Source: Streptomyces sp. NBC_00162
GTDB taxonomy: Bacteria; Actinomycetota; Actinomycetes; Streptomycetales; Streptomycetaceae
Direction: 5' to 3'
Assembly: GCF_024611995.1 (NCBI RefSeq)
Contig: NZ_CP102509.1
Span: forward strand, 6,014,001-6,078,000
DNA length: 64,000 nucleotides
The position numbers were made by a program, and so were the translations under genes. The notes under the pieces are model-generated. The model saw nothing but the letters and a program-made list of their open reading frames with translations, ran no database searches and was not told the DNA's origin. Of the stretch, positions 52,234 to 64,000 are shown one piece after another. Each line of letters begins with the position of its first letter. The first letter of the stretch is position 1.

Positions 52234-53775
52234 TCAGCCCAGGTCGCCGGTGGCGGTGCGCTCGGCCAGCCGCACCAGGGTGCGCACGGCGGAGCCGGTG
52301 CCGCCCTTGGGGGTGTAGCCGTACGGAGCGCCCTCGTGGAAGGCCGGGCCCGCGATGTCGAGGTGGGCCCAGGTGATGCCCTCGCCGACGAACTCCTTCA
52401 GGAAGATGCCGGCCACCAGGCCGCCGCCCATGCGCTCGCCCATGTTCGCGATGTCGGCGGTGGGGGAGTCGATGGACTTGCGCAGCTCGGCGGGGAGCGG
52501 CATCGGCCACGAGGACTCGCCGACCTCCTCGGCGATCTCGTGGACCGAGGTACGGAAGGCGTCGTCGTTCGACATGATGGCGAAGGTGCGGTTGCCCAGG
52601 GCCACCATCATCGCGCCGGTCAGGGTGGCGACGTCGACGATCGCGTCCGGGTTGTCCTCGGAGGCCCGGGTCAGCGCGTCACCGAGGACCAGGCGGCCCT
52701 CGGCGTCCGTGTTGAGGACCTCGACGGTCTTGCCGCTGTACATGCGCAGGACGTCGCCCGGCTTGGTGGCGGTGCCGGAGGGCATGTTCTCGGCGAGCGC
52801 GAGCCAGCCGGTGACGTTGACCTGCAGGCCCAGCTTCGCGGCCGCGACGACGGAGGCGAAGACGGCGGCGGCGCCGGCCATGTCGCACTTCATCGTCTCG
52901 TTGTGGCCGGCCGGCTTGAGGGAGATGCCGCCCGAGTCGTAGGTGATGCCCTTGCCGACGAAGGCCAGGGTCTTCTCCGCCTTGGGGTGGGTGTAGGAGA
53001 GCTTCACCAGGCGCGGCGGGTTGTCGGAGCCCTTGCCGACGCCCATGATGCCGCCGTAGCCGCCCTTGATCAGGGCCTTCTCGTCCAGGATCTGGACCTT
53101 GATGCCGTTCTCCTTCGCGGTCGCGGAGGCGACGGCGGCGAAGGCCTCGGGGGTGAGGTCGTTCGGCGGGGTGTTGACGAGGTCGCGGGCGATGTTGACC
53201 TCGGTCGCGACGACCGTGGCGCGCTCGGCCGCGGCCTTGTGCTCCTTGTCGCGCGGCTTGGCGCCGAGCAGGGCGATCTCGCCGAGCGGCAGCTTGGGGC
53301 CGCCGTTCTTGTCGGCGTTCTTGGCGGTCTTCGTCTCGCCGCCCTGGTAGGCGGTGAAGGCGTACGCGCCCAGCAGCGCGCCCTCGGCGACGGCGGTGAC
53401 GGCGGAGGCGTCGTCCAGGGGAAGGGCGAAGGCGGCCTTCTTGAAGCCGTGCAGGGCGCGGGCGGCGGCGCCGGCGGCGCGGCGCAGCACCTCCTCGTCG
53501 AACGACTCGTCCTTCTCGGGGACGGAGCCGAGTCCGACCGCCAGCACGACCGGGACCTTCAGGCCCGCCGGGGCCGGCAGCTTGGTGATCTCGCTTTCGG
53601 TGCCCGAGGCGCCGACGGCGTCGAGCACGGCGGCGAGCTTACCGTCGTACGCCTTGTCCACGGCCTCGGCGCCCGCGGCGACGACCGGACCCTTGGGGCC
53701 CTTGGCGACACCGACGACGAGGGCGTCGGCGCGCAGCGTCGCCGCGCCGGCAGTGCTGAGAGTCAGAGCAGTCAC
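52234..53775 (-). CDS. pepA: Leucyl aminopeptidase (M17)
   Basis: 513 residues, GTG start (MTALTLSTAGAATLRAD). M17 metallopeptidase: N-terminal macro-like domain, then AFVGKGITYDSGGISLKPAG with metal-binding Lys/Asp, MKCDMAGAAAV, the family signature NTDAEGRLVLGD and GMVAMGNRT-like MMVALGNRTFAI. It releases N-terminal residues from peptides, and E. coli PepA also binds DNA at recombination sites. Next to lpdA in Streptomyces (from memory SCO2179). Ends with the strong hairpin at 52168. Confidence 0.97.
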   Translation of the reverse strand: MTALTLSTAGAATLRADALVVGVAKGPKGPVVAAGAEAVDKAYDGKLAAVLDAVGASGTESEITKLPAPAGLKVPVVLAVGLGSVPEKDESFDEEVLRRAAGAAARALHGFKKAAFALPLDDASAVTAVAEGALLGAYAFTAYQGGETKTAKNADKNGGPKLPLGEIALLGAKPRDKEHKAAAERATVVATEVNIARDLVNTPPNDLTPEAFAAVASATAKENGIKVQILDEKALIKGGYGGIMGVGKGSDNPPRLVKLSYTHPKAEKTLAFVGKGITYDSGGISLKPAGHNETMKCDMAGAAAVFASVVAAAKLGLQVNVTGWLALAENMPSGTATKPGDVLRMYSGKTVEVLNTDAEGRLVLGDALTRASEDNPDAIVDVATLTGAMMVALGNRTFAIMSNDDAFRTSVHEIAEEVGESSWPMPLPAELRKSIDSPTADIANMGERMGGGLVAGIFLKEFVGEGITWAHLDIAGPAFHEGAPYGYTPKGGTGSAVRTLVRLAERTATGDLG

Positions 53776-54120
53776 GGTGGTGAAGTCTCGCTTCCGTTTG
53801 TGTGTGTGGGCCGAGTGGGTGGACGGCCATCCATGGCGATCGTATTCCGGCCCGACGGCTGCCAGAAATGAGCCTACGCGCACGGACTCTTCCGTACGTC
53901 ACTCGAAGGTTTGGCAAGTTGTTCGATCAAGGGGCCAGGAGGTTCACCCATCTGTGGACTCTGCTCCAGGTTTGCCCCGTAGACCTGACGAGGTCCGAAA
54001 GACTCGGTCCACTCTCGCAAGGGGACGCGGGGTTCCTTTGCATGATTTCCACAGAGCCTCCCCGGCCCGGCCGACCGCCTAGGGCCGTGTCGAGGGATGC
54101 CTGCGGGGGGAAAGGCCGAA
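53776..54120. other. 345-base divergent promoter region between pepA and the exopolysaccharide deacetylase gene
   Basis: A long AT-richer stretch (around 53880-54070) that should carry both promoters. I see no clear operator palindrome, known riboswitch core or convincing ORF. A GGTTTGCCCC word on the + strand made me test for a cyclic-di-GMP riboswitch on the - strand; the rest of its core is missing. Confidence 0.4.
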
Positions 54121-56148
54121 ATGGTCAACAAGAACCGGATGAACAGGGTCGCCGCCGCCATGGCCGCGGCAGCCCTGGTGTCCGTGGCAGTACCCGCCGC
54201 GACCGCCCAGGCGGCCACGGCTCCGCGCATCGACCTGAAGGTGCTGGTCGTCGACGACGGCGGCAGCTCGGTCGAGGCGATCACCGCGGAACTCCGCGAC
54301 ACCGGAGTCCCGTACACCCGTGTCCAACTGGGCGGCAGCGGCCGCCCGGTCATCGACGCGGGCTTCCTCAGCGACACGGTGGACGGCCGTCCCCGTGCCA
54401 AGTACCAGGGCGTCGTCCTGCCGAACGAGAACCCCTTCGGCGAGGGCTCCGCCGAGATGGCCGCCCTCGCCGCGTACGAGACGACGTACGGGATCCGTCA
54501 GGTCGACGCCTACACCTGGGCCCACCCGGGGGTCGGCCTGGAGTACACCGACAACGGCGGCTTCAGCGGCCAGCTCGACGGCACCCAGGCCGCGGTCACC
54601 GCGGCCGGCAAGGCGGGGCCCTTCGGCTACCTCGGAGGTCAAGTCGCCTTCGAGGACAACTCCGCCCTCGTTCCAGAGAGCTTCGGGTTCATGGGCAAGC
54701 CGCGGCCCGGCTACACCAGCTACCTCGACGCCCCCGTCGGCTCCGGACGGGCCTCGCTCGTCGGCGAGTACGCCCACGACGGGCGCAGCGAGCTGGTCGT
54801 CACCTTCGGCTACAACCAGTACCAGCAGCAGTTCCGGCTGCTGGCCCGCGGCATCGTCGACTGGCTCACCCAGGGGGTCCACCTCGGCCAGAGCCGCAAC
54901 TACTTCGCGGTCCACGTCGACGACGTCTTCGCCCCGGACGCCCGCTGGAACAAGGAGCTCAACTGCACGCCCGGCGACTACGCCTGCGCCGGCGGCGAGG
55001 GCAAGGAGAGCACCATCCGGATGACCGCCGCCGACGCCCAGTACGCGGCGCAGTGGCAGACGTCCAAGAGCTTCAAGCTCGACATGCTCTTCAACGCGGG
55101 CGCCGGTGAGGAGTGGAAGACCGAGAACGGCGGCACCGACGCCCTCACCGCCCAGCTCGTCGCCGACCGGGCCAAGTACCGCTGGATGAACCACACCTAC
55201 ACGCACCCCTTCCTCGGCTGCGTCCAGAACACCACCACCACCCCGTGGACCTGCGTCAAGAACGCCCAGGGCGCCGTCCAGTACATGAGCCGCGCGGACA
55301 TCTCCGCGCAGATCCGCGACAACAACAACTGGGCCGCCGCCAAGGGCATCACCACCGACCGGACCGAGCTCGTCACCGGCGAGCACTCGGGCCTCAAGAC
55401 CAACCCGCAGCAGCCCCAGGACAACCCCAACCTGGCTGGCGCGCTCGCCGACAACGGCGTGAAGTGGGCGGGCAGCGACAACTCCCGCGAACCCGTGCAG
55501 CGGGCGGTCGGCGCCGCCCTGACCGTGCCCCGCCACCCGATGAACGTGTACTACAACACGGGCACCAACGCGGAGATGGCCGACGAGTACAACTGGATCT
55601 ACACCAGCCGCGCACACGGCGGCAGCGGCATCTGCGAGGACAACCCGGCGACCTCGACCTGTCTGCCGGCCCCGGTGGACGCCAACACCGGCTACCTGGA
55701 CCAGATCGTCCCCCAGGAGGCCCGGACCGCGCTGCGACACGTACTGGCCAACGACCCGCGCCCGCACTACGTCCACCAGTCCAACCTCGCCGAGGACCGC
55801 ACCCTCTACCCGGTGCTCAACCAGGTCCTCGACACGTACCGGAGCCTCTACGCGCCCAGCGCCCCGATCGTCAACCAGACCATGAAGGAGGCCGGCGTCG
55901 AGCTCGGCCGCCGCGCTGCCTGGGACAAGGCCCTCGCCGAGGGCAAGGTCACCGCCTACCGCATCGGCACAGCCGTCACCGTCAAGGCGCCCTCCGGAGT
56001 CGTCGCCCCGGTCACCGCCCCCAACGGCACCAAGAAGCAACTCCTCCTGGGCACCGCCGACTTCGGCACCGCCTACGCGGGCACCCGCTCCACCTGGACC
56101 GGACCCGAGCTGCTCCAGAGCGCCGTCACGCTCAAGCTGCCCAGCTGA
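54121..56148 (+). CDS. Secreted Agd3-like polysaccharide deacetylase (CE18-type)
   Basis: 675 residues from ATG (MVNKNRMNRVAAAMAAAALV) with GGGGGGAAAGG upstream; Sec signal peptide ending near AQA. An N-terminal ~220-residue domain (LKVLVVDDGGSSVEAITAEL, FGYLGGQVAFEDNS) precedes a catalytic domain like Agd3 of Aspergillus fumigatus: FAVHVDDVFAPDARW (His265, Asp267, Asp268), MNHTYTHPFLG (His358-x3-His362, metal ligands), TGEHSGLKTN and RHPMNVYYNTGT. Agd3 deacetylates galactosaminogalactan. First gene of a five-gene unit with a PelF-like glycosyltransferase, a membrane protein, a spherulin-4 family protein and a GH114 lipoprotein, which supports a GalNAc-polymer substrate. Identification rests on motifs and context; a different cell-surface polysaccharide is possible. 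Confidence 0.8.
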   Translation: MVNKNRMNRVAAAMAAAALVSVAVPAATAQAATAPRIDLKVLVVDDGGSSVEAITAELRDTGVPYTRVQLGGSGRPVIDAGFLSDTVDGRPRAKYQGVVLPNENPFGEGSAEMAALAAYETTYGIRQVDAYTWAHPGVGLEYTDNGGFSGQLDGTQAAVTAAGKAGPFGYLGGQVAFEDNSALVPESFGFMGKPRPGYTSYLDAPVGSGRASLVGEYAHDGRSELVVTFGYNQYQQQFRLLARGIVDWLTQGVHLGQSRNYFAVHVDDVFAPDARWNKELNCTPGDYACAGGEGKESTIRMTAADAQYAAQWQTSKSFKLDMLFNAGAGEEWKTENGGTDALTAQLVADRAKYRWMNHTYTHPFLGCVQNTTTTPWTCVKNAQGAVQYMSRADISAQIRDNNNWAAAKGITTDRTELVTGEHSGLKTNPQQPQDNPNLAGALADNGVKWAGSDNSREPVQRAVGAALTVPRHPMNVYYNTGTNAEMADEYNWIYTSRAHGGSGICEDNPATSTCLPAPVDANTGYLDQIVPQEARTALRHVLANDPRPHYVHQSNLAEDRTLYPVLNQVLDTYRSLYAPSAPIVNQTMKEAGVELGRRAAWDKALAEGKVTAYRIGTAVTVKAPSGVVAPVTAPNGTKKQLLLGTADFGTAYAGTRSTWTGPELLQSAVTLKLPS

Positions 56149-56243
56149 CCGTACGGGCAGACCGCAAGCCGAGTATCACGAGCGCCGGCGCTCCGCGAAC
56201 CTACGGGCGCCGGCCCCTTTCACGTCCTGGGGGGACACACCGC

Positions 56244-57758
56244 ATGAGCCATGGGCGTCATGTCACCATGCTCACCGAAGGCACCTATCCGCACGTCCAC
56301 GGGGGCGTCAGCACCTGGTGCGACCAACTGGTCCGCGGCATGCCGGAGGTCGACTTCAACGTCATAGCCCTGACCGGCTCCGGGCGCGAGCCGGTCACCT
56401 GGGAACTTCCGCGCAACGTCTACCGGCACACCTCCGTACCGCTCTGGGGGGCTCCTCCCGGACGAGGCCGCCGGAGCGCCCTGCGGGGCAAGGCCCACCG
56501 CCGCTTCACCGAGGTCTACGAAACCTTCCTGCTCTCCCTGCTCGACCCTGGCCACGGAGGATTCTCCGCGGCCCTGCGCGAACTGGCCCTCCTGGCCCGC
56601 GCCGGCCGGCTCGCCCCGGCCCTGCGCTCCGAGTCCGTGCTCCGCCTGCTGATGACCGTGTGGACCCGCCCCGGCCTGACCACCGCCGCCGCCGAGCCCA
56701 CCATCCACGACGCGCTCACCGCCACCGACCTGCTGGAACACGCGCTGCGCCCGCTCTGCGTGCGGATCCCGCCCGACAGCGTCGCGCACGCCGTCAGCAG
56801 CGGCCTCGCCACCCTCCCGGCCCTCGCCGCCAAGTACCTCGACGAGGTGCCCTTCCTCCTCACCGAGCACGGCATCTACCTGCGCGAGCGCTACCTCGGC
56901 TACCGCTCGGCCGCCCAGCGCTGGCCCGTCAAGGCCCTCATGCTCGGCTTCTACCGCGAGCTCAACACCGAGGGGTACCGGCAGGCCGACCTGATCACCC
57001 CGTGCAACCAGTACAACCGCCGCTGGGAGGAGCGCGGAGGCGCCGCCTCCGACCGCATCCGCACCGTCTACAACGGCGTCGACCCGCACGCCTTCCCCGA
57101 GGCCGGCCCGGAGCCCGAGGTGCCCACCCTCAGCTGGTGCGGCCGCATCGACCCCATCAAGGACCTCGAAACCCTCATCCGGGCCTACGCCTTCATGCGC
57201 GAGGAACTGCCCGCCCTGCGGCTGCGCCTCTTCGGACCCGTCCCGGCCGGCTGCGAGGAGTACCGGCTCCGCCTGGAGAAACTCGCCGCCGAACTGGGCG
57301 TGACCGACGGGATCTCGTACGAGGGCCGCATCGAGCAGGTCGCCCGGGCCTACGCGGCCGGCAGCATCGTGATGCTCTCCTCCATCAGCGAGGGCTTCCC
57401 CTTCAGCATCATCGAGGCCATGTCCTGCGGCCGCACCACCGTCTCCACCGACGTCGGCGGGGTCCGCGAGGCCGTCGGCGACACCGGCCTCGTCGTCCCG
57501 CCGCGCGAGCCCGAGACCATGGCCCGCGCCACCCTCGCCCTGCTCCGCGACGACGAACGCCGCGCCGAGCTGGGCCGGGCGGCCCGTAAACGGGTGGTGG
57601 AGAAGTTCACGCTCCACCAGTCCGTGGACGGCTTCCGGCACATCTACAAAGAACTCGCCGGCCAGCCCGTCCTGCCCGTCCGCGAAGGCGACGACTGGAC
57701 CCAGCGGCTCGCCGACCCCTGGTACCGCGAGCTCGCGGCCGACGGGAGCCTGTGGTGA
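56244..57758 (+). CDS. PelF-like GT4 glycosyltransferase (DUF3492)
   Basis: 504 residues. The N-terminal TEGTYPHVHGGVSTWCDQLV and TEHGIYLRERYLGY are hallmarks of PelF and related glycosyltransferases, which polymerise the Pel polysaccharide. The C-terminal half is a GT4/GT-B fold: VYNGVDPHAFPEAG, WCGRIDPIKDLETLIRAY (K for UDP), then LSSISEGFPFSIIEAMSCGR and STDVGGVREAVGDTG, giving the E-x7-E motif. It lacks a signal peptide or membrane segment, as expected for a cytoplasmic enzyme using UDP-GlcNAc/UDP-GalNAc. The start codon follows GGGGGG in the deacetylase intergenic region. Its stop overlaps the membrane-protein start by four bases. Confidence 0.9.
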   Translation: MSHGRHVTMLTEGTYPHVHGGVSTWCDQLVRGMPEVDFNVIALTGSGREPVTWELPRNVYRHTSVPLWGAPPGRGRRSALRGKAHRRFTEVYETFLLSLLDPGHGGFSAALRELALLARAGRLAPALRSESVLRLLMTVWTRPGLTTAAAEPTIHDALTATDLLEHALRPLCVRIPPDSVAHAVSSGLATLPALAAKYLDEVPFLLTEHGIYLRERYLGYRSAAQRWPVKALMLGFYRELNTEGYRQADLITPCNQYNRRWEERGGAASDRIRTVYNGVDPHAFPEAGPEPEVPTLSWCGRIDPIKDLETLIRAYAFMREELPALRLRLFGPVPAGCEEYRLRLEKLAAELGVTDGISYEGRIEQVARAYAAGSIVMLSSISEGFPFSIIEAMSCGRTTVSTDVGGVREAVGDTGLVVPPREPETMARATLALLRDDERRAELGRAARKRVVEKFTLHQSVDGFRHIYKELAGQPVLPVREGDDWTQRLADPWYRELAADGSLW

Positions 57759-59287
57759 GCGGATCCCTCTGGCTCAAGCCGCCCGGCGCAGCCGCCGACA
57801 CCCTCCTGGCTGTCCCCCGGCCGCGCGCCGAAGGGCCGGCGGCCGCCGACCCGATGGACGAACTGGCCGAGCGCCTCCACCCGTTCATCGCCGCCGCCGT
57901 CCACCCCGACGAGATCGCCGCTGTCCTCGAATCCGACGGCATGACGGACGAGTACATCCGGCTCACCTACGGCCGCCACGACTCCTTCGCACTCGCCGAG
58001 GAGCTCTACACCCGGGTGCCGCGCTCCTTCCCGGAGCCCGCGGACACCCCCGACCCCTGGAAGGTCTCCCTCACCGCCTGCCTCCTGCGCGGGGTGATCT
58101 TCGCCCTGCCCGGGCTCGCCTACGTCCTCGGCGCGCCCCTGCTCGACGGCCCGCCCGACCGCCTCGGCCTGCCCGCCGGAACCCTGACCCTGCTCGCCGG
58201 AGCGCTCATAGGGTGGGTCTGGGACCAGACCCTCTCCCACCGGGCCTACTCCTGGCTCGGGCTCGGCGACCGGGCCGCCGCCGGGCGGACCCTGCTCGCC
58301 GGCGCCCCCGCCGGGTCCCTGCTGGGCACCGCCGCCGCGCTGGCCGTGCCCGGCGGGCCGCCCTTCTCGTACGCCTTCGCCGCCGGACAGTCCCTCTACG
58401 TCGGGGCCGCCACCGTCCTGCTCGTCCTCGGCCGGGAGCGGGTGCTGCTCGCCGCCCTCGGCCCGATGGCCGCCGGGGCCGTGCTCGCGCTCTTCGTGGA
58501 CCTGCCCGTGCCGGTACGGATGACCCTGCTCGGGGCGTCCCTGCTGACCGCCTGCACCCTGGCCGTACGGGAACTCCCGCTGGCCGAGGGCGCCCGGGCC
58601 GCCGCCGCCCGGGTCCGGGGCTGGTGGGTACGCCGGCCCGGAACCGGCCCGGTGCGCTGGCGGATGCTGCGCGGCGCGGAGGAGGAGCACGGGCCGCGCG
58701 GCCCCCGGCTGGGGGACTCCGTCCCGTACGGGGTCTTCGGCCTCGGCACCGGCCTGCTCGTGCTGTACGCCGCCCTCGGCGAGGTGCTCGCCGGGGGTCC
58801 CGCCGAGGCGGTCGCCGCCCCGTCGGCGGTCGCCCTCACCCTCAGCATGGGTCCCGCCGAATGGCTGCTGCACCGGTTCCGCAGCGGCAGCCTCGCCGGG
58901 CTCCGGGCGGCCCGCTCGCCCCGGTCCTTCCGGCGGCGGATGCTCAGCACGCTGGCCCGGTGCCTCGCCGTGTACCTGGTGGTGCTGCTCGCCCTGGGGC
59001 TGGCCGGAACCCTGCTCTGGCCCGGTGCCCCGGCCCTCACCGCGGCCCGCGCCCTGACCCTGCTCCTGCTCGGCGCCGTCATGTGGACCGGACTGCTGCT
59101 CCAGTCCTTCGGCGCGGTCCGGCCGGCGGCCGTGGTCTGCGCCTCGGCCGCCGTCGCCCAGAGCCTGGCCCTGCTGACCGGACTGGGGCAGCCCCGGCTG
59201 GTCCAGCTGGCGGTGGCGGGCGCGGCCGCCGCGGCGCTGGCCGCGCTGGTCTGCCTGCTGCTGGGGCGTGCGACGGCGCACCGCTGA
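57755..59287 (+). CDS. 12-segment membrane protein, candidate polysaccharide exporter/flippase
   Basis: 510 residues, GTG start overlapping the glycosyltransferase stop (GTGA). About 105 cytoplasmic residues (DELAERLHPFIAAAVHPDEI) precede twelve hydrophobic segments, for example LRGVIFALPGLAYVLG, PYGVFGLGTGLLVLYAALG and LAVYLVVLLALGLAGTLLW. No family motif is obvious. The topology (12 helices) and location next to a PelF-like enzyme match PelG, a MATE/MOP-type protein that exports Pel polymer, but the sequence does not look like PelG to me. It is a good candidate for the missing export function of this locus; alternatively it may be a regulatory or sensor membrane protein. Confidence 0.75.
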   Translation: MSGSLWLKPPGAAADTLLAVPRPRAEGPAAADPMDELAERLHPFIAAAVHPDEIAAVLESDGMTDEYIRLTYGRHDSFALAEELYTRVPRSFPEPADTPDPWKVSLTACLLRGVIFALPGLAYVLGAPLLDGPPDRLGLPAGTLTLLAGALIGWVWDQTLSHRAYSWLGLGDRAAAGRTLLAGAPAGSLLGTAAALAVPGGPPFSYAFAAGQSLYVGAATVLLVLGRERVLLAALGPMAAGAVLALFVDLPVPVRMTLLGASLLTACTLAVRELPLAEGARAAAARVRGWWVRRPGTGPVRWRMLRGAEEEHGPRGPRLGDSVPYGVFGLGTGLLVLYAALGEVLAGGPAEAVAAPSAVALTLSMGPAEWLLHRFRSGSLAGLRAARSPRSFRRRMLSTLARCLAVYLVVLLALGLAGTLLWPGAPALTAARALTLLLLGAVMWTGLLLQSFGAVRPAAVVCASAAVAQSLALLTGLGQPRLVQLAVAGAAAAALAALVCLLLGRATAHR

Positions 59288-59357
59288 TGCCACGACCGCT
59301 GATGCCCCGACCGCCGAGTCACCGCCGATCCCCGTGACCCCGTACGAGAAGGACCCC

Positions 59358-60008
59358 ATGCTGCTGGTGCCGCTCTACGAGCACCCCGCCGACCGGCCCG
59401 AGGAGTGGGAGCTGCTGATCCGCTCCGCCGGGCGGCTGCACTCCGTGGTGCTCAACCCTGACAGCGGGCCGGGCCGGGCCCCCGACGAACGGTTTGCCGC
59501 CGTCGCCGGGCGGCTGCGGGCGGCCGGGGTACCCGTCCTCGGCTACGTCGACACCGACTACGGGCGGCGCCCGCACGCGGACGTCGTCCAGGACCTGCTG
59601 CGCCACCGCGACTGGTACGCCACCGACGGCGCCTTCCTGGACCAGGCCTCCGCCGATCCGGAACTGCTGCCCCACTACGGGCGGCTCGCCGTCGCCGCCC
59701 GGGCCTCGGGCGCCCGTACCCTCGTCCTGAACCACGGCGTCCACCCGCACCCCGGGTACGCCGGACTCGCCGATCTGCTCGTCACCTTCGAGGGCCCCTG
59801 GGACGCCTACCGGGACGCGGCCACCGCGCCGCCCTGGACCGCCGACCACCCCGCCCAGCGGTTCTGCCACCTCGTGTACGCCGTCCCGCCGGGCGCGCCC
59901 GCCGCCGAACTCGCCCAGGAGCGGCGGGCGGGGGTGCACTGCGCGGTCCCCGGGACCGGCGCACACCCGTGGGGGACCCTCCCGTACGCCCTGGAGGCAG
60001 CCGGATGA
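59358..60008 (+). CDS. Spherulin-4/Sph3-like (GH135 family) protein without signal peptide
   Basis: 216 residues from ATG (MLLVPLYEHPADRPEEWELL); a longer in-frame start would overlap the previous gene. Motifs of the spherulation-specific family 4: VPLYEHP, SVVLNPDSGPGRAPDERF, VLGYVDTDYGRRP (the GYVxTxYGxR core), GAFLDQAS and VLNHGVHPHPGYAGLADLLV. Fungal Sph3 (GH135) cleaves alpha-1,4-GalNAc links of galactosaminogalactan; the acids in these motifs are likely catalytic. Unlike secreted Sph3 I see no signal peptide. It sits 70 bases after the membrane gene and overlaps the GH114 gene (ATGA), so it is co-translated. A cytoplasmic role or export by an unusual route is possible. Confidence 0.83.
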   Translation: MLLVPLYEHPADRPEEWELLIRSAGRLHSVVLNPDSGPGRAPDERFAAVAGRLRAAGVPVLGYVDTDYGRRPHADVVQDLLRHRDWYATDGAFLDQASADPELLPHYGRLAVAARASGARTLVLNHGVHPHPGYAGLADLLVTFEGPWDAYRDAATAPPWTADHPAQRFCHLVYAVPPGAPAAELAQERRAGVHCAVPGTGAHPWGTLPYALEAAG

Positions 60009-60823
60009 AGCGTTTCGCCACCGTGCTGGTCGCGGCGCTGCTGCTGCTCACCGCCTGCACCACCGCGGAGCCGGGGGACGACGGCGAGGACGAGCCGTAC
60101 CCGTGGCCCGGCCAGGCGCCGGGGGAGCGCTGGCGGCCCCCGCCCGGCGTCGGCTGGCAGTGGCAGCTCACCGGGAAGCTCGACACGTCGGTGAAGGCGC
60201 CCGTCTACGACGTCGACGGGTTCACCACCACCAAGGAACAGGTCGCCGCCCTGAAGAAGGCCGGCCGCAAGACCATCTGCTACATCTCCACCGGCGCCTG
60301 GGAGGACTTCCGGCCCGACGCGGACGCCTTCCCGAAGGCGACGATCGGCCAGGGCAACGGCTGGGAGGGCGAGCGCTGGCTGGATATCCGGCAGCTGACT
60401 GAACTGGAACCGCTGATCGCCAAACGGTTCGACATGTGCCGGGACAAGGGCTTCGACGCGGTGGAGCCCGACAACATGGACGGCTACCGCAACACCTCCG
60501 GCTTCCCGCTGACCGCCGAGGACCAGCTGAGCTACAACCGGCTGATCGCGAAGCTGGCCCACGACCGGGGCCTGGCGGTCGGTCTGAAGAACGACCTCGA
60601 CCAGATCCCGCAGCTGGTCGGCGAGTTCGACTTCGCGGTCAACGAGCAGTGCGCCCAGTACCGGGAGTGCGAGAAGCTGACCCCCTTCATCGAAGCGGGG
60701 AAGGCCGTCTTCCACGTGGAGTACGAACTGCCGGCCGGCCGCTTCTGCGAACGCGCGCGCGAGCTGAAGCTGAGCTCCCTGCAGAAGCGCTACGACCTCG
60801 ACGCCTGGCGCCGCCCCTGCTGA
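60005..60823 (+). CDS. GH114 lipoprotein, endo-alpha-1,4-polygalactosaminidase-like
   Basis: 272 residues. Lipoprotein signal: MKRFATVLVAALLLLTAC with Cys18 in an LTAC lipobox, so anchored on the outer face of the membrane. The GH114 domain starts at WQWQLTGKLDTSVKAPVYDV and has ICYISTGAWEDFRPDA, FDAVEPDNMDGYRNTSGFPL (Asp/Glu-rich strand end) and FAVNEQCAQYREC with a Glu likely in the active site. Related enzymes (Ega3 of A. fumigatus, bacterial polygalactosaminidase) cut alpha-1,4-galactosamine polymers. It is the last gene of the exopolysaccharide unit and could trim or release the product. The convergent sensor-kinase gene ends three bases later. Confidence 0.9.
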   Translation: MKRFATVLVAALLLLTACTTAEPGDDGEDEPYPWPGQAPGERWRPPPGVGWQWQLTGKLDTSVKAPVYDVDGFTTTKEQVAALKKAGRKTICYISTGAWEDFRPDADAFPKATIGQGNGWEGERWLDIRQLTELEPLIAKRFDMCRDKGFDAVEPDNMDGYRNTSGFPLTAEDQLSYNRLIAKLAHDRGLAVGLKNDLDQIPQLVGEFDFAVNEQCAQYRECEKLTPFIEAGKAVFHVEYELPAGRFCERARELKLSSLQKRYDLDAWRRPC

Positions 60824-60826
60824 CCC

Positions 60827-62032
60827 TCAGACCGGCAGGATCGCGTGGACCCGGTAGCCGCCCCCGTACCGGGGACCGGCGAAGCAGGACCCGCCCAGCG
60901 CGCCGGTGCGCTCGCGCATGCCCAGCAGTCCGTGGCCCCCGCCGGGCTCGGCGTCGGACGCCTCCGTGCCGCCGTCGTCGAGCACCGTCACCTCCACCGA
61001 GGGACCCACCCGCACCACGCTGACCTCGGCCCGGGCCCCCGGACCCGCGTGCTTGCGCACGTTGGTCAGCGCCTCCTGGACCACCCGGTACGCCGCCAGG
61101 TCCACCGCGGCCGGCAGCGGCCCCGGCTCGGGCCCCAGCTGGACGATCACCTCCACCGGCAGCCCGGCGTGCCGGAAGGTGTCCACCAGCTCGTCCAGGA
61201 CGGCCAGCCCGGGCGCGGGCTCGGTCGGCGCCTCCGGGTCACCGGACTGCCGCAGCAGCCCGACCGTGGCCCGCAGTTCGTTCAGCGCCGACCGGCTGGC
61301 GTCCCGTACGTGGGCCAGGGCCTCCTTGGCCTGGTCCGGCCGCTTGTCCATGACGTGCGCCGCCACCCCGGCCTGCACGTTGACCAGGGCGATGTGGTGG
61401 GCCACCACGTCGTGCAGGTCCCGGGCGATCCGCAGCCGTTCCTCGGCGACCCGGCGCCGCGCCTCCTCGTCCCGGGTCCGCTCGGCGCGCTCGGCCCGCT
61501 CCCGGATGGCGTCGATGAAGGCCCGCCTGCTGCGCACGGCGTCCCCGGCGGCGGCGGCCATCCCGGTCCAGGCGAAGATCCCGATGTTCTCCTGCGCGTA
61601 CCAGGGCAGCGGCCCGGCGAGCATGGCCACGCCCGTCAGACCGGCCATGGTGAGCAGCCCGATCCGCCAGGTCGTGGGCCGGTCGGTGCACGCGGCCACC
61701 GTGTACAGGGCGATCACCGTGCACATGGCGACGGGTGCCCGCGGCTCCCCGGTGGTCAGCTCAAGCAGCGAGAGCCCGCAGGTCACGGCGAGCACCGCGC
61801 GCGGCCGGCGGCGCCGGAACACCAGGACGGCCGCGCCGAGCAGCATCAGCAGCAGAGAGAAGGGATCGGGGTTGCGCGTCCCGAAGGTGGGCCCGTGTGG
61901 CCCGTGCGGATCGGCGAAGGACCCGAGAACCATGCAGACGAGTGCCCCGAACGCGAGCACGGCATCGGTGGCGAGCGGGTGGGCCCGCATCCACTGCCGG
62001 GTGGGCGCGAACCGCCCGAGGTCTGTCGTCAC
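60827..62032 (-). CDS. NarL-type two-component sensor histidine kinase (no adjacent regulator seen)
   Basis: 401 residues, GTG start. About five or six N-terminal TM segments (e.g. DAVLAFGALVCMVLGSFA, FSLLLMLLGAAVLVFRRRRP, APVAMCTVIALYTVAACTDR) precede a coiled region (RERAERAERTRDEEARRRVA), the HisKA_3 motif RIARDLHDVVAHHIALVNVQ with phospho-His, then VVQEALTNVRKHAG (N box) and HGLLGMRERTGALGG (G box). The response regulator is usually adjacent but is absent between 60824 and 62086, so the partner is elsewhere. Gap of 53 bases from the upstream rhomboid-like gene. Confidence 0.93.
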   Translation of the reverse strand: MTTDLGRFAPTRQWMRAHPLATDAVLAFGALVCMVLGSFADPHGPHGPTFGTRNPDPFSLLLMLLGAAVLVFRRRRPRAVLAVTCGLSLLELTTGEPRAPVAMCTVIALYTVAACTDRPTTWRIGLLTMAGLTGVAMLAGPLPWYAQENIGIFAWTGMAAAAGDAVRSRRAFIDAIRERAERAERTRDEEARRRVAEERLRIARDLHDVVAHHIALVNVQAGVAAHVMDKRPDQAKEALAHVRDASRSALNELRATVGLLRQSGDPEAPTEPAPGLAVLDELVDTFRHAGLPVEVIVQLGPEPGPLPAAVDLAAYRVVQEALTNVRKHAGPGARAEVSVVRVGPSVEVTVLDDGGTEASDAEPGGGHGLLGMRERTGALGGSCFAGPRYGGGYRVHAILPV

Positions 62033-62085: not shown

Positions 62086-62805
62086 TCAGTGCGGCCGGGT
62101 GTCCAGCGGCGGCGGGCGCCCGCCCAGCGGTGCCCGGGAGCGCTCCGGCCCCCACTTCGCCCGGACCACGCACACCGCCATCACGGCGGCGATGGCCGCC
62201 AGGTGCTCCTTGCCCGCGAGGTTGTTCTTGACCAGCACCTCGCCGATCATCACGAGGACCACCACGGCGCCGGTGAGGTACGCCCGGTACCGCCAGCAGA
62301 CGTAGATGGCGAGGCCGACCACCGCCGCCGAGGGCCCGGTGTCGTTGACGATCCGGTCGGACACCGGCAGGCCCAGGGGGTGGTCCGGGCCCAGCGAGAG
62401 CCCGATCCGCGCGTACGTGGTCCCGGCGAGCGTGGCCACGTAGCCGATCACCAGCGTGCGCCACCAGCCGATGCAGATCTCCGAGATCCCGAAGACGAGC
62501 AGGATCTGCGCGAGCGCCCCCCACACCGGCAGGTCGAGGGCGGGCACGAACAGCGACAGGGGGGTTCGCAGCAGGGCCAGCCAGAGCGGGTCGACGGCCT
62601 TGACCGACCCGAGGTTCTGGACCGGCTGGAAGCCCCAGGAGGTGTTCTGCACGATCTGGAAGACCGAGGTCAGGCAGACCGCGCCGATGGTCATCGGGAT
62701 CGCGCGCCACTTGTCGCGGGCGAGCGCGCCCCGGACGGTCCAGAACAGGGGACCCCACTCGCGGCGGGCGAACCGCCGGAGTGCGGGGGTGTTCCACGCT
62801 GTCAA
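62086..62805 (-). CDS. Rhomboid-like integral membrane protein
   Basis: 239 residues, TTG start overlapping the stop of the upstream gene (TTGA). Multi-pass: PMTIGAVCLTSVFQIVQNTS, LAQILLVFGISEICIGWWRT, LVIGYVATLAGTTYARIG, GPSAAVVGLAIYVCWRYRAY, LTGAVVVLVMIGEVLVKNN and AAIAAVMAVCVVRAKWGP. DTGPSAAVVG and KEHLAAIAAV could mirror the Ser and His of rhomboid proteases, but these signatures are weak. The four-base overlap with the lysyltransferase-like gene means they are made together, suggesting a joint role in membrane-lipid or envelope stress. A second rhomboid-like protein is at 11935. Confidence 0.75.
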   Translation of the reverse strand: MTAWNTPALRRFARREWGPLFWTVRGALARDKWRAIPMTIGAVCLTSVFQIVQNTSWGFQPVQNLGSVKAVDPLWLALLRTPLSLFVPALDLPVWGALAQILLVFGISEICIGWWRTLVIGYVATLAGTTYARIGLSLGPDHPLGLPVSDRIVNDTGPSAAVVGLAIYVCWRYRAYLTGAVVVLVMIGEVLVKNNLAGKEHLAAIAAVMAVCVVRAKWGPERSRAPLGGRPPPLDTRPH

Positions 62806-64000
62806 CGGCGGGTCTCCAGGTGTCTGCGGTGCAGCCACTTCGGCAGGCCGGGGGCTTCCAGGAAGCCTTCGGCCCGGCCCGCCGCGATACCGATCCGCAA
62901 CAGGTCCGAACTCTTCTCGAAGAGCATGAACCGCGGTTCCCAGATCGGCCGGTATTTGGCGTTGGCCCGGTAGAGGGACTCGATCTGCCACCAGCGGGAG
63001 AAGAAGCTGAGCAGGGAACGCCACATCCGGAGCACCGGACCCGCGCCGAGGCGGGACCCGCGCTCGAAGACGGACCGGAACATCGCGAAGTTCAGCGAGA
63101 CCTGGGTGACCCCGATCTCCTTGGAGCGTTCGAGGAGTTCGATGACCATGAACTCCATCAGGCCGTTCTCGGAGTCCCGGTCACGGCGCATCAGGTCGAG
63201 CGACAGGCCCTTGGGCCCCCACGGCACGAAGGACAGCACGGCCCGCAGATCGCCGTTGCCGTCGGTGCACTCCAGCATCACGCACTGGCCGTCGCCGGGG
63301 TCGCCCAGTCGGCCCAGTGCCATCGAGAAGCCGCGCTCGGTCGCGCCGTCGCGCCAGTCGTCGGCCCGCTTGACCAGCTCGTCCATCTCCTCGGCGGGGA
63401 TGTCGGCGTGGCGGCGGATCCGTACGGTGTACCCGGCCCGCTTGACGCGGTTGTACGCCTGCCGGACGGTCCGCATGGCGCGGCCCTCCAGGGTGAACTC
63501 GGCGGTCTCCACGATCGCCTCGTCGCCGAGCTCCAGCGCGTCCAGGCCGTGCCGCGCGTAGATCTGCCCGGCCTCCTCGCTCGCGCCCATCACGGCCGGC
63601 ACCCAGCCGTGCTCACGGGCCTCGGCCAGCCACGGGTCGATGGCCCCGGGCCAGGCCTCGGGGTCGCCGATCGGGTCGCCGGAGGCCAGCGAGACCCCGC
63701 CGACGACGCGGTAGGTGACGGCGGCCTTGCCGGTGGGGGACCAGGTGACGGACTTCTCGCGGCGCAGCGCGAAGTAGCCGAGCGAGTCGCGGTCGCCCTG
63801 CCGGGCGAGCAGCGCCCGCAGCCGTTCCTCGTCGTCCTCGGAGAGCGGGTCGACGGCGCGGCGCGAGCGGAAGGCCGCGAACAGCACGGCGAGCAGCAGC
63901 AGCATCGACATCACGTTGACGAAGACGTCCACCCAGCCGGGGGTGTCGATCGTGCTGAAGGCCTTGGCGTCCGGGTCCAGGGTGATCAGCCGCATCGCCC
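62802..64000 (-). CDS. Phosphatidylglycerol lysyltransferase-like protein (DUF2156), 5' end possibly outside window
   Basis: At least 397 residues. A hydrophobic segment near the N-terminus (VDVFVNVMSMLLLLAVLFAA) is followed by the DUF2156/MprF synthase domain: GYFALRREKSVTWSPTGKAA, VGGVSLASGDPIGDP, GWVPAVMGASEEAGQIYARH, VKRAGYTVRIRRHADIPAEE, FSMALGRLGDPGDGQCVMLE and FRSVFERGSRLGAGP. This domain moves Lys from Lys-tRNA onto phosphatidylglycerol, reducing surface charge. An ATG at 63995 is possible, but the frame stays open to the edge and full MprF-type proteins have more TM segments, so the gene probably extends further. Confidence 0.85.
   Translation of the reverse strand, partial: AMRLITLDPDAKAFSTIDTPGWVDVFVNVMSMLLLLAVLFAAFRSRRAVDPLSEDDEERLRALLARQGDRDSLGYFALRREKSVTWSPTGKAAVTYRVVGGVSLASGDPIGDPEAWPGAIDPWLAEAREHGWVPAVMGASEEAGQIYARHGLDALELGDEAIVETAEFTLEGRAMRTVRQAYNRVKRAGYTVRIRRHADIPAEEMDELVKRADDWRDGATERGFSMALGRLGDPGDGQCVMLECTDGNGDLRAVLSFVPWGPKGLSLDLMRRDRDSENGLMEFMVIELLERSKEIGVTQVSLNFAMFRSVFERGSRLGAGPVLRMWRSLLSFFSRWWQIESLYRANAKYRPIWEPRFMLFEKSSDLLRIGIAAGRAEGFLEAPGLPKWLHRRHLETRR

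Follow-up and report, generated by a model that had tools for sequence, protein, structure and literature searches.

A five-gene Streptomyces locus with relatives of fungal galactosaminogalactan enzymes and a PelF-class glycosyltransferase as a candidate exopolysaccharide unit

The stretch of DNA analysed here, hereafter the window, comprises 64,000 nucleotides of Streptomyces sp. NBC_00162 (C1:6014001-6078000 of a 9.02-Mb, two-contig genome). At its positions 54121-60823 it contains five genes that probably form an exopolysaccharide unit for the synthesis, export, deacetylation and trimming of a cationic galactosamine polymer, a reading to which we assign a probability of about two in three. 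The positions and the common strand of the genes, as given in an earlier note on this DNA, were confirmed from the open reading frames:

54121-56148, + strand: Agd3-like (CE18-type) polysaccharide de-N-acetylase, predicted secreted, 675 amino acids
56244-57758, + strand: PelF-class GT4 glycosyltransferase (GT), predicted cytoplasmic, 504 amino acids
57755-59287, + strand: membrane protein (MP) with a predicted MOP-superfamily fold, proposed PelG-equivalent exporter, 510 amino acids
59334-60008, + strand: spherulin-4 (GH135-like) protein, Sph4; alternative starts at 59268 (GTG) or 59358
60005-60823, + strand: GH114 endo-alpha-1,4-galactosaminidase-like lipoprotein, 272 amino acids

The first product was described in the earlier note as an Agd3-like deacetylase, and both its sequence and its structure model are nearer to Agd3 (CE18) than to CE4. 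The structure prediction, which the note had suggested as a check, gave a model that fits Agd3 better than CE4 enzymes. No CE4 family of Pfam matched at E <= 1, structural matches to CE4 were weaker and mostly confined to a single domain, and membership of CE4, whose peptidoglycan enzymes do not match the protein better than CE18 does, was rejected. As CE18 requires, a CBM87-type N-terminal domain is followed by the esterase barrel; residues 624-675, where a beta-rich C-terminal domain is expected, have a pLDDT below 50, and the alignment nevertheless reaches residue 674. A profile search, also suggested earlier, did find Pfam Agd3_CE, yet the score remains below the gathering threshold (22.5 versus 27.6 bits). 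Several homologues 86-92% identical to the protein are listed with PF25115.2 in a precomputed list, and the relative in locus L136 (see below) scores 93.5. The motifs V-D-D (D267/D268) and H358-x3-H362, correctly noticed before, correspond to CM1 and CM2 of CE18. Together with H552 of CM4, whose placement depends on a weak alignment stretch (YMFHQ of 6nwz), they are kept in 84/84 window-like rows and 8/8 rows of a sister subtype, type B; rows from other Actinobacteria in this alignment include fragments. The roles of the catalytic residues of 6nwz follow PMC7229062. R456, our guess for the CM3 arginine, is present in 84/84 window-like rows; here and in the following counts of catalytic residues and hydrophobic segments, gapped rows are omitted as stated. 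The protein begins with a hydrophobic segment at about residue 10, and an AxA-type cleavage site was judged by eye. By its family the enzyme would act on an alpha-1,4-linked N-acetylgalactosamine (GalNAc) polymer.

The second product, also recognised earlier, is a PelF-like GT4 enzyme with 169.2 bits against NCBIfam PelF NF038011 (cut-off 100) and 189.2 bits against DUF3492 of Pfam. It has no transmembrane window. Its TEGTYP and E-x7-E motifs were confirmed, the latter being kept in 81 of the 82 window-like rows with one gap.

For the third product, the claim of a 12-segment membrane protein agrees with its AlphaFold2 (AF2) model, in which a soluble helical region (residues ~33-87) precedes 12 long transmembrane helices arranged in the two-lobe exporter fold of the MOP superfamily. 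Among the PDB entries listed for this model, 49 of 50 are titled as MOP members and one is untitled; Foldseek ranks 1-40 are all MOP, with modest scores. Searches of the sequence against Pfam and NCBIfam gave no match. A PelG-like export role is thus supported by the predicted fold and not by sequence: PelG family PF16933 matched neither MP nor any other place in the genome of the window, whereas a Thermotoga control matched, and identity with PelG was rejected at an hhalign probability of 0.1-0.2, weak evidence given a PelG profile of 3 rows. MP is therefore best described as the predicted polymer exporter of a sequence family without a name. In comparison with MOP exporters such as MATE, WzxE, MurJ and PelG, it differs in showing no profile similarity to the three PelG sequences compared and in possessing the additional N-terminal region. 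Pfam scans of this region in five pieces returned nothing above cut-off, and its best hit in a PDB profile search had an E of only 2.3. A strict text pattern for the region (74/78 type A, 0/8 type B, 1/1 type C, 0/7 type D and 2/2 other loci) was discarded, since it is too strict for type B, whose residues do align.

Two loci, L136 and L139, from two genomes of one non-Streptomyces actinobacterial genus, bear on the role of MP. Each holds a true PelG (459 and 471 bits) between a profile-found GT and agd3, that is, at the place of MP, and hence combines enzymes that appear to be of Pel and of galactosaminogalactan (GAG) type. Their gene order is GT-PelG-agd3, and the opposite strand carries a spherulin-4 gene that does have a hydrophobic segment. 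A third PelG locus with low GC content (L151) has no agd3 match, so that agd3 occurs in two of the three PelG loci looked at, both from the same genus. The two agd3-bearing loci argue against a different account of the unit, in which MP would be a Wzx-like flippase and the GT4 enzyme would add a few residues to build a lipid- or wall-linked oligosaccharide instead of a synthase-type exopolymer. Against this account, which we consider improbable, it also counts that none of the five products matched an initiating transferase or a polymerase family, and that PelF is the only model passed by the GT among the NCBIfam cut-offs shown.

The fourth product was rightly placed in the spherulin-4 family: it scores 108 bits against Pfam Spherulin4 (with a query from start 59268) and is a relative of Sph3 (5c5g, E 1.3e-9). 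At the aligned catalytic positions of Sph3, D and E are present in 72/74 window-like rows, with gaps in the remaining two; the E adjoining the catalytic D is replaced by Q. In the alignment with 5c5g the D precedes the E by 56 residues (counted by hand), a spacing that fits Asp166 of Sph3. PMC12054363 gives the catalytic residues of Sph3 as Asp196/Glu222 and, in its fungal scheme, shows Sph3 attached to the membrane close to the outer face of the synthase. The membrane-bound, outside-acting placement of GH135 (Sph3) appears not to extend to the protein encoded here. A hydrophobic segment in the 80 residues before the Sph4 domain was found in 0/74 type A, 0/8 type B and 0/7 type D rows by a crude test that flags 67/84 agd3 and 51/63 GH114 window-like rows and therefore misses some. 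Both PelG loci have such a segment; the non-Streptomyces locus L134 has none. A lipobox-like pattern, without a hydrophobic segment, occurs in 3/7 type D rows. The type of exporter may hence be linked to the location of Sph4, a lead and not a law, as there are only two PelG loci from a single genus.

The fifth product, as claimed, is a GH114 lipoprotein, with 284.7 bits against Pfam GH114 and a lipobox (LLTAC) recognised by eye. It aligns with fungal Ega3 (6oj1) at E 1.2e-58 with 98 of 218 aligned residues identical (45%), and the catalytic D and E are kept in 63/63 window-like rows.

The co-occurrence of the genes was assessed in two samples, namely 80 named Streptomyces loci chosen for close similarity to the window deacetylase and 81 Streptomyces genomes drawn evenly from the genus, including that of the window. 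Close protein relatives and named records of the window are nearly all from Streptomyces. The exact order agd3-GT-MP-Sph4-GH114 is found in 56 of the 80 named loci. Among the 55 with full flanks, 46 have all five families on one strand and 54 contain agd3, GT and MP; all 55 have pepA, lpdA and sucB upstream on the opposite strand, as does none of 8 type B loci. The genes therefore co-occur in a shared order, against the earlier note's own proviso that homologues scattered in other genomes would speak against a unit. In the even draw, the deacetylase occurs in 41, DUF3492 in 78, Spherulin4 in 56 and GH114 in 74 of the 81 genomes. The corresponding match lists, which omit matches far from any agd3, contain 29 window-like agd3 loci; GT and MP are within 12 kb in 26 of these, together with GH114 in 18, and all five families are found in 17. 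The 18 type B loci have GT, MP and Sph4 in 17 cases, 12 of those with a GH114 match. A partial MP match (G017), a partial GH114 (G057) and a below-cut-off GH114 (G022) were counted as present, and types A (window-like, at least 63%) and B (57-62%) were split by identity, with the architecture checked within the loci read. Three type A cases consist of agd3 only, two of them being L152 and L153 and the third lying at a contig end.

These counts also bear on the possibility that the unit mainly attacks or uses foreign fungal GAG by means of the secreted deacetylase and GH114, with GT and MP unrelated. The predicted secreted deacetylase and the lipoprotein hydrolase would suit such a role, and GH114 is widespread among Streptomyces genomes irrespective of agd3 (74/81 genomes versus 41/81 for agd3). 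However, agd3 is most regularly accompanied by GT and MP (26/29 and 54/55), none of the five products belongs to a sugar-uptake family, and nucleotide-sugar genes are added in type B loci; we regard this possibility as very improbable. Across the phylum, the agd3 profile matches 13 of 396 genomes and 7 of 236 genera, including Streptomyces. Six of the seven actinobacterial loci outside Streptomyces have a GT in the agd3 unit. The multi-helix protein of these units matches the MP profile in three and PelG in two; in L134 it has 8 hydrophobic segments and no MP-profile match. In L137 agd3 is present, with GT and multi-helix protein unmatched in the stretch read, and in L138 agd3 and GT are spread over several frames.

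Type B loci (L014-L020 and L031 were read) consist of agd3, GT, MP, a LegB-like 4,6-dehydratase, a nucleotidyltransferase, an SDR, Sph4 and often GH114, and all three sugar genes between MP and Sph4 were called in 7 of the 8. Representatives of each additional gene were tested against profiles; the single dehydratase tested reached 448 bits against a cut-off of 475. Since sister loci carry such genes, their absence from the window is characteristic of its subtype. The insertion suggests that the same machine might make a different amino-sugar polymer, for example from a 6-deoxy or 4-modified N-acetylhexosamine instead of GalNAc, and the enzyme families concerned have few characterised members. 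Elsewhere, the genome of the window itself holds a LegB-like homologue (G000:C1:6190623-6191585) that shares 53% identity with the type B enzyme, which may also be read in this sense. On the other side, the window GH114 shares 45% identity with Ega3, an endo-alpha-1,4-galactosaminidase, more than the 33-35% that PMC12054363 gives for fungal FsGH114, and the type B sugar genes occur in 0/80 named window-like loci. We regard a different sugar as unlikely, if worth keeping in mind.

A paralogous locus, type D, is widespread; seven were read (L022, L023-L027 and L030). The one in the genome of the window (L022, C1:3424762-3428979) consists of GT, an MP-like protein, SDR and Sph4 with no agd3 or GH114 alongside, and its GT reaches 85.6 bits against PelF, below cut-off, with a start set by the gene caller. 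The active site of type D Sph4 is degraded: the acid/base E is lost in 7/7 and the D also in 2/7, including the genome of the window. The single type C locus (L021) stems from a genome that is 79% complete in ~630 contigs, and contamination is therefore possible.

Taken together, the galactosamine-polymer reading would work as follows. The cytoplasmic PelF-class GT4 would build an alpha-1,4 chain from a UDP-N-acetylhexosamine, most likely UDP-GalNAc, and this chain would cross the membrane via the 12-helix MOP-fold MP in the role of PelG. The secreted CE18-type enzyme would then strip part of the acetyl groups to yield a cationic polymer, and the membrane-anchored GH114 lipoprotein would cleave deacetylated stretches. 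Sph4, which we place inside because no export signal was found in it, would, if active, work at the inner face on the acetylated chain, either as a hydrolase that trims or releases it or as a non-catalytic partner.

Several points weigh against this reading. From gene content, families, folds, conserved residues and co-occurrence we infer the identity of the sugar, the linkage, the direction of transport, the deacetylation and every activity; galactosamine in particular is suggested by enzyme families only, and the sugar genes of type B leave room for another sugar than GalNAc. In the window deacetylase, which also has a match to NDST1, Y550 stands at the position of the conserved M of CM4 (M666). 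GH114 and sometimes Sph4 seem dispensable in loci. PelD, the c-di-GMP receptor (PF16963), was matched in 0/81 genomes, with control genomes also at 0/14. The earlier interpretation as a whole is thus partly supported: the enzyme families do fit a galactosamine polymer, and the sugar was named with more certainty than these families, its only basis, allow. Likewise, the unit indeed has no epimerase, yet GalE-type epimerases above cut-off are encoded at three other places in the genome.

We note that the unit belongs to a kind of operon already described. According to the relevant section of PMC7229062 (Bamford et al. 2020), agd3 lies within or close to carbohydrate operons in 30 of the 35 bacterial species of its tree, and all of the operons identified code for a cytoplasmic GT as well as a multi-spanning membrane protein, with GH114 highly consistent and spherulin-4 in some Actinobacteria; the window shares this whole composition. 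That section leaves the families of the GT and the membrane protein unnamed, whereas a PelF-class GT and a MOP-fold MP can be named here, and subtypes A to D are told apart. The 'compact hybrid' of the earlier note is therefore misleading, given these published operons and the nucleotide-sugar genes of sister loci. A literature search for a Pel- or GAG-like locus of Streptomyces brought up only this general description, subscription papers being mostly outside its coverage, and a term search of a paper on S. toxytricini pellets gave no match.

Compared with the fungal GAG cluster (uge3, sph3, ega3, agd3 and gtb3), relatives of Agd3, Ega3 and Sph3 are likewise clustered together with a GT and a membrane passage; the window unit differs in the absence of an epimerase (Uge3), in encoding GT and membrane part as separate genes, and in that no signal or transmembrane segment was found in Sph4. 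With the Gram-positive Pel operon pelDEA_DAFG, which PMC7112168 reports from actinobacteria among others, it shares a PelF-class GT, a MOP-fold protein at the place expected for PelG and a separate extracellular deacetylase. It lacks a PelG family member, its deacetylase is CE18-like, and GH114 and spherulin-4 are added. New in our data are an MP that has no family match, has a predicted MOP exporter fold and stands where L136 and L139 have PelG; an Sph4 hydrophobic segment that is absent in the Streptomyces loci tested and present in the two PelG loci; and the widespread paralogue of GT, MP, SDR and Sph4 without agd3, in which the Sph4 active site appears degraded in the seven loci read.

We tentatively suggest, at somewhat less than even odds, that Actinobacteria possess a third galactosamine-polymer machine beside Pel and fungal GAG. 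This machine may combine a PelF-class synthase with a new MOP exporter family that has its own N-terminal cytosolic helical domain, and would dispense with PelG and perhaps also with PelD and PelE. An inside-acting GH135-like protein may replace the extracellular one. Its full form may be the eight-gene type B locus of Streptomyces, which would make its own nucleotide sugar, with the window holding a pared-down version fixed next to pepA and the widespread deacetylase-less relative possibly making a related neutral or oligomeric glycan.

With this locus, the galactosamine-containing polysaccharides that PMC7229062 cites for Streptomyces walls gain a specific set of candidate genes; the same paper has Ega3 acting on deacetylated GAG. 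It likewise supplies a candidate family for the endo-galactosaminidase of S. griseus from 1975, for which PMC12054363 states that no sequence is available. A predicted fold is now attached to the unnamed membrane protein of agd3 operons, and an Ega3-like bacterial enzyme (45%) beside relatives of Agd3 and Sph3 bears on the proposed bacterial origin of the fungal cluster, for which such strains would serve as harmless models. Pellet formation in industrial Streptomyces is also influenced by surface polymers, an effect so far linked to MatAB and CslA.

Some details of the locus remain to be added. Instead of the three 4-bp overlaps claimed earlier there are only two, GT/MP (GTGA, 57755-57758) and Sph4/GH114 (ATGA, 60005-60008); with the GTG start at 59268, Sph4 shares 20 bp with MP, and with a start at 59334 or 59358 the two are separate. 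The opposite strand carries pepA (52234-53775) and genes for a dihydrolipoamide dehydrogenase and a sucB-like product (sucB named by eye) on one side of the unit, and a gene for a histidine kinase (60827-62032) on its other side. An Rfam search upstream of the unit found no RNA element, and predictions of sigma-70 promoters (0) and terminators (1) were not above shuffled sequence. The agd3 gene persists alone near the pepA site in L152:6737-8839 and L153:6425-8518 (pepA seen by eye), and in an orphan agd3 relative (L029:5450-7615) the second D of CM1 and the two histidines of CM2 have been lost. Near the five-gene unit, a gene at 62802-63995 encodes a phosphatidylglycerol lysyltransferase C-terminal domain (348.5 bits), with a tblastn match in 43 of the 55 full-flank type A loci. 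When 23 type A upstream regions are aligned, the sequence CTTTGCATGATTTCCAC (54036-54052), ~70-85 nucleotides 5' of the agd3 start, is conserved for the most part; it is a possible promoter or regulator site.

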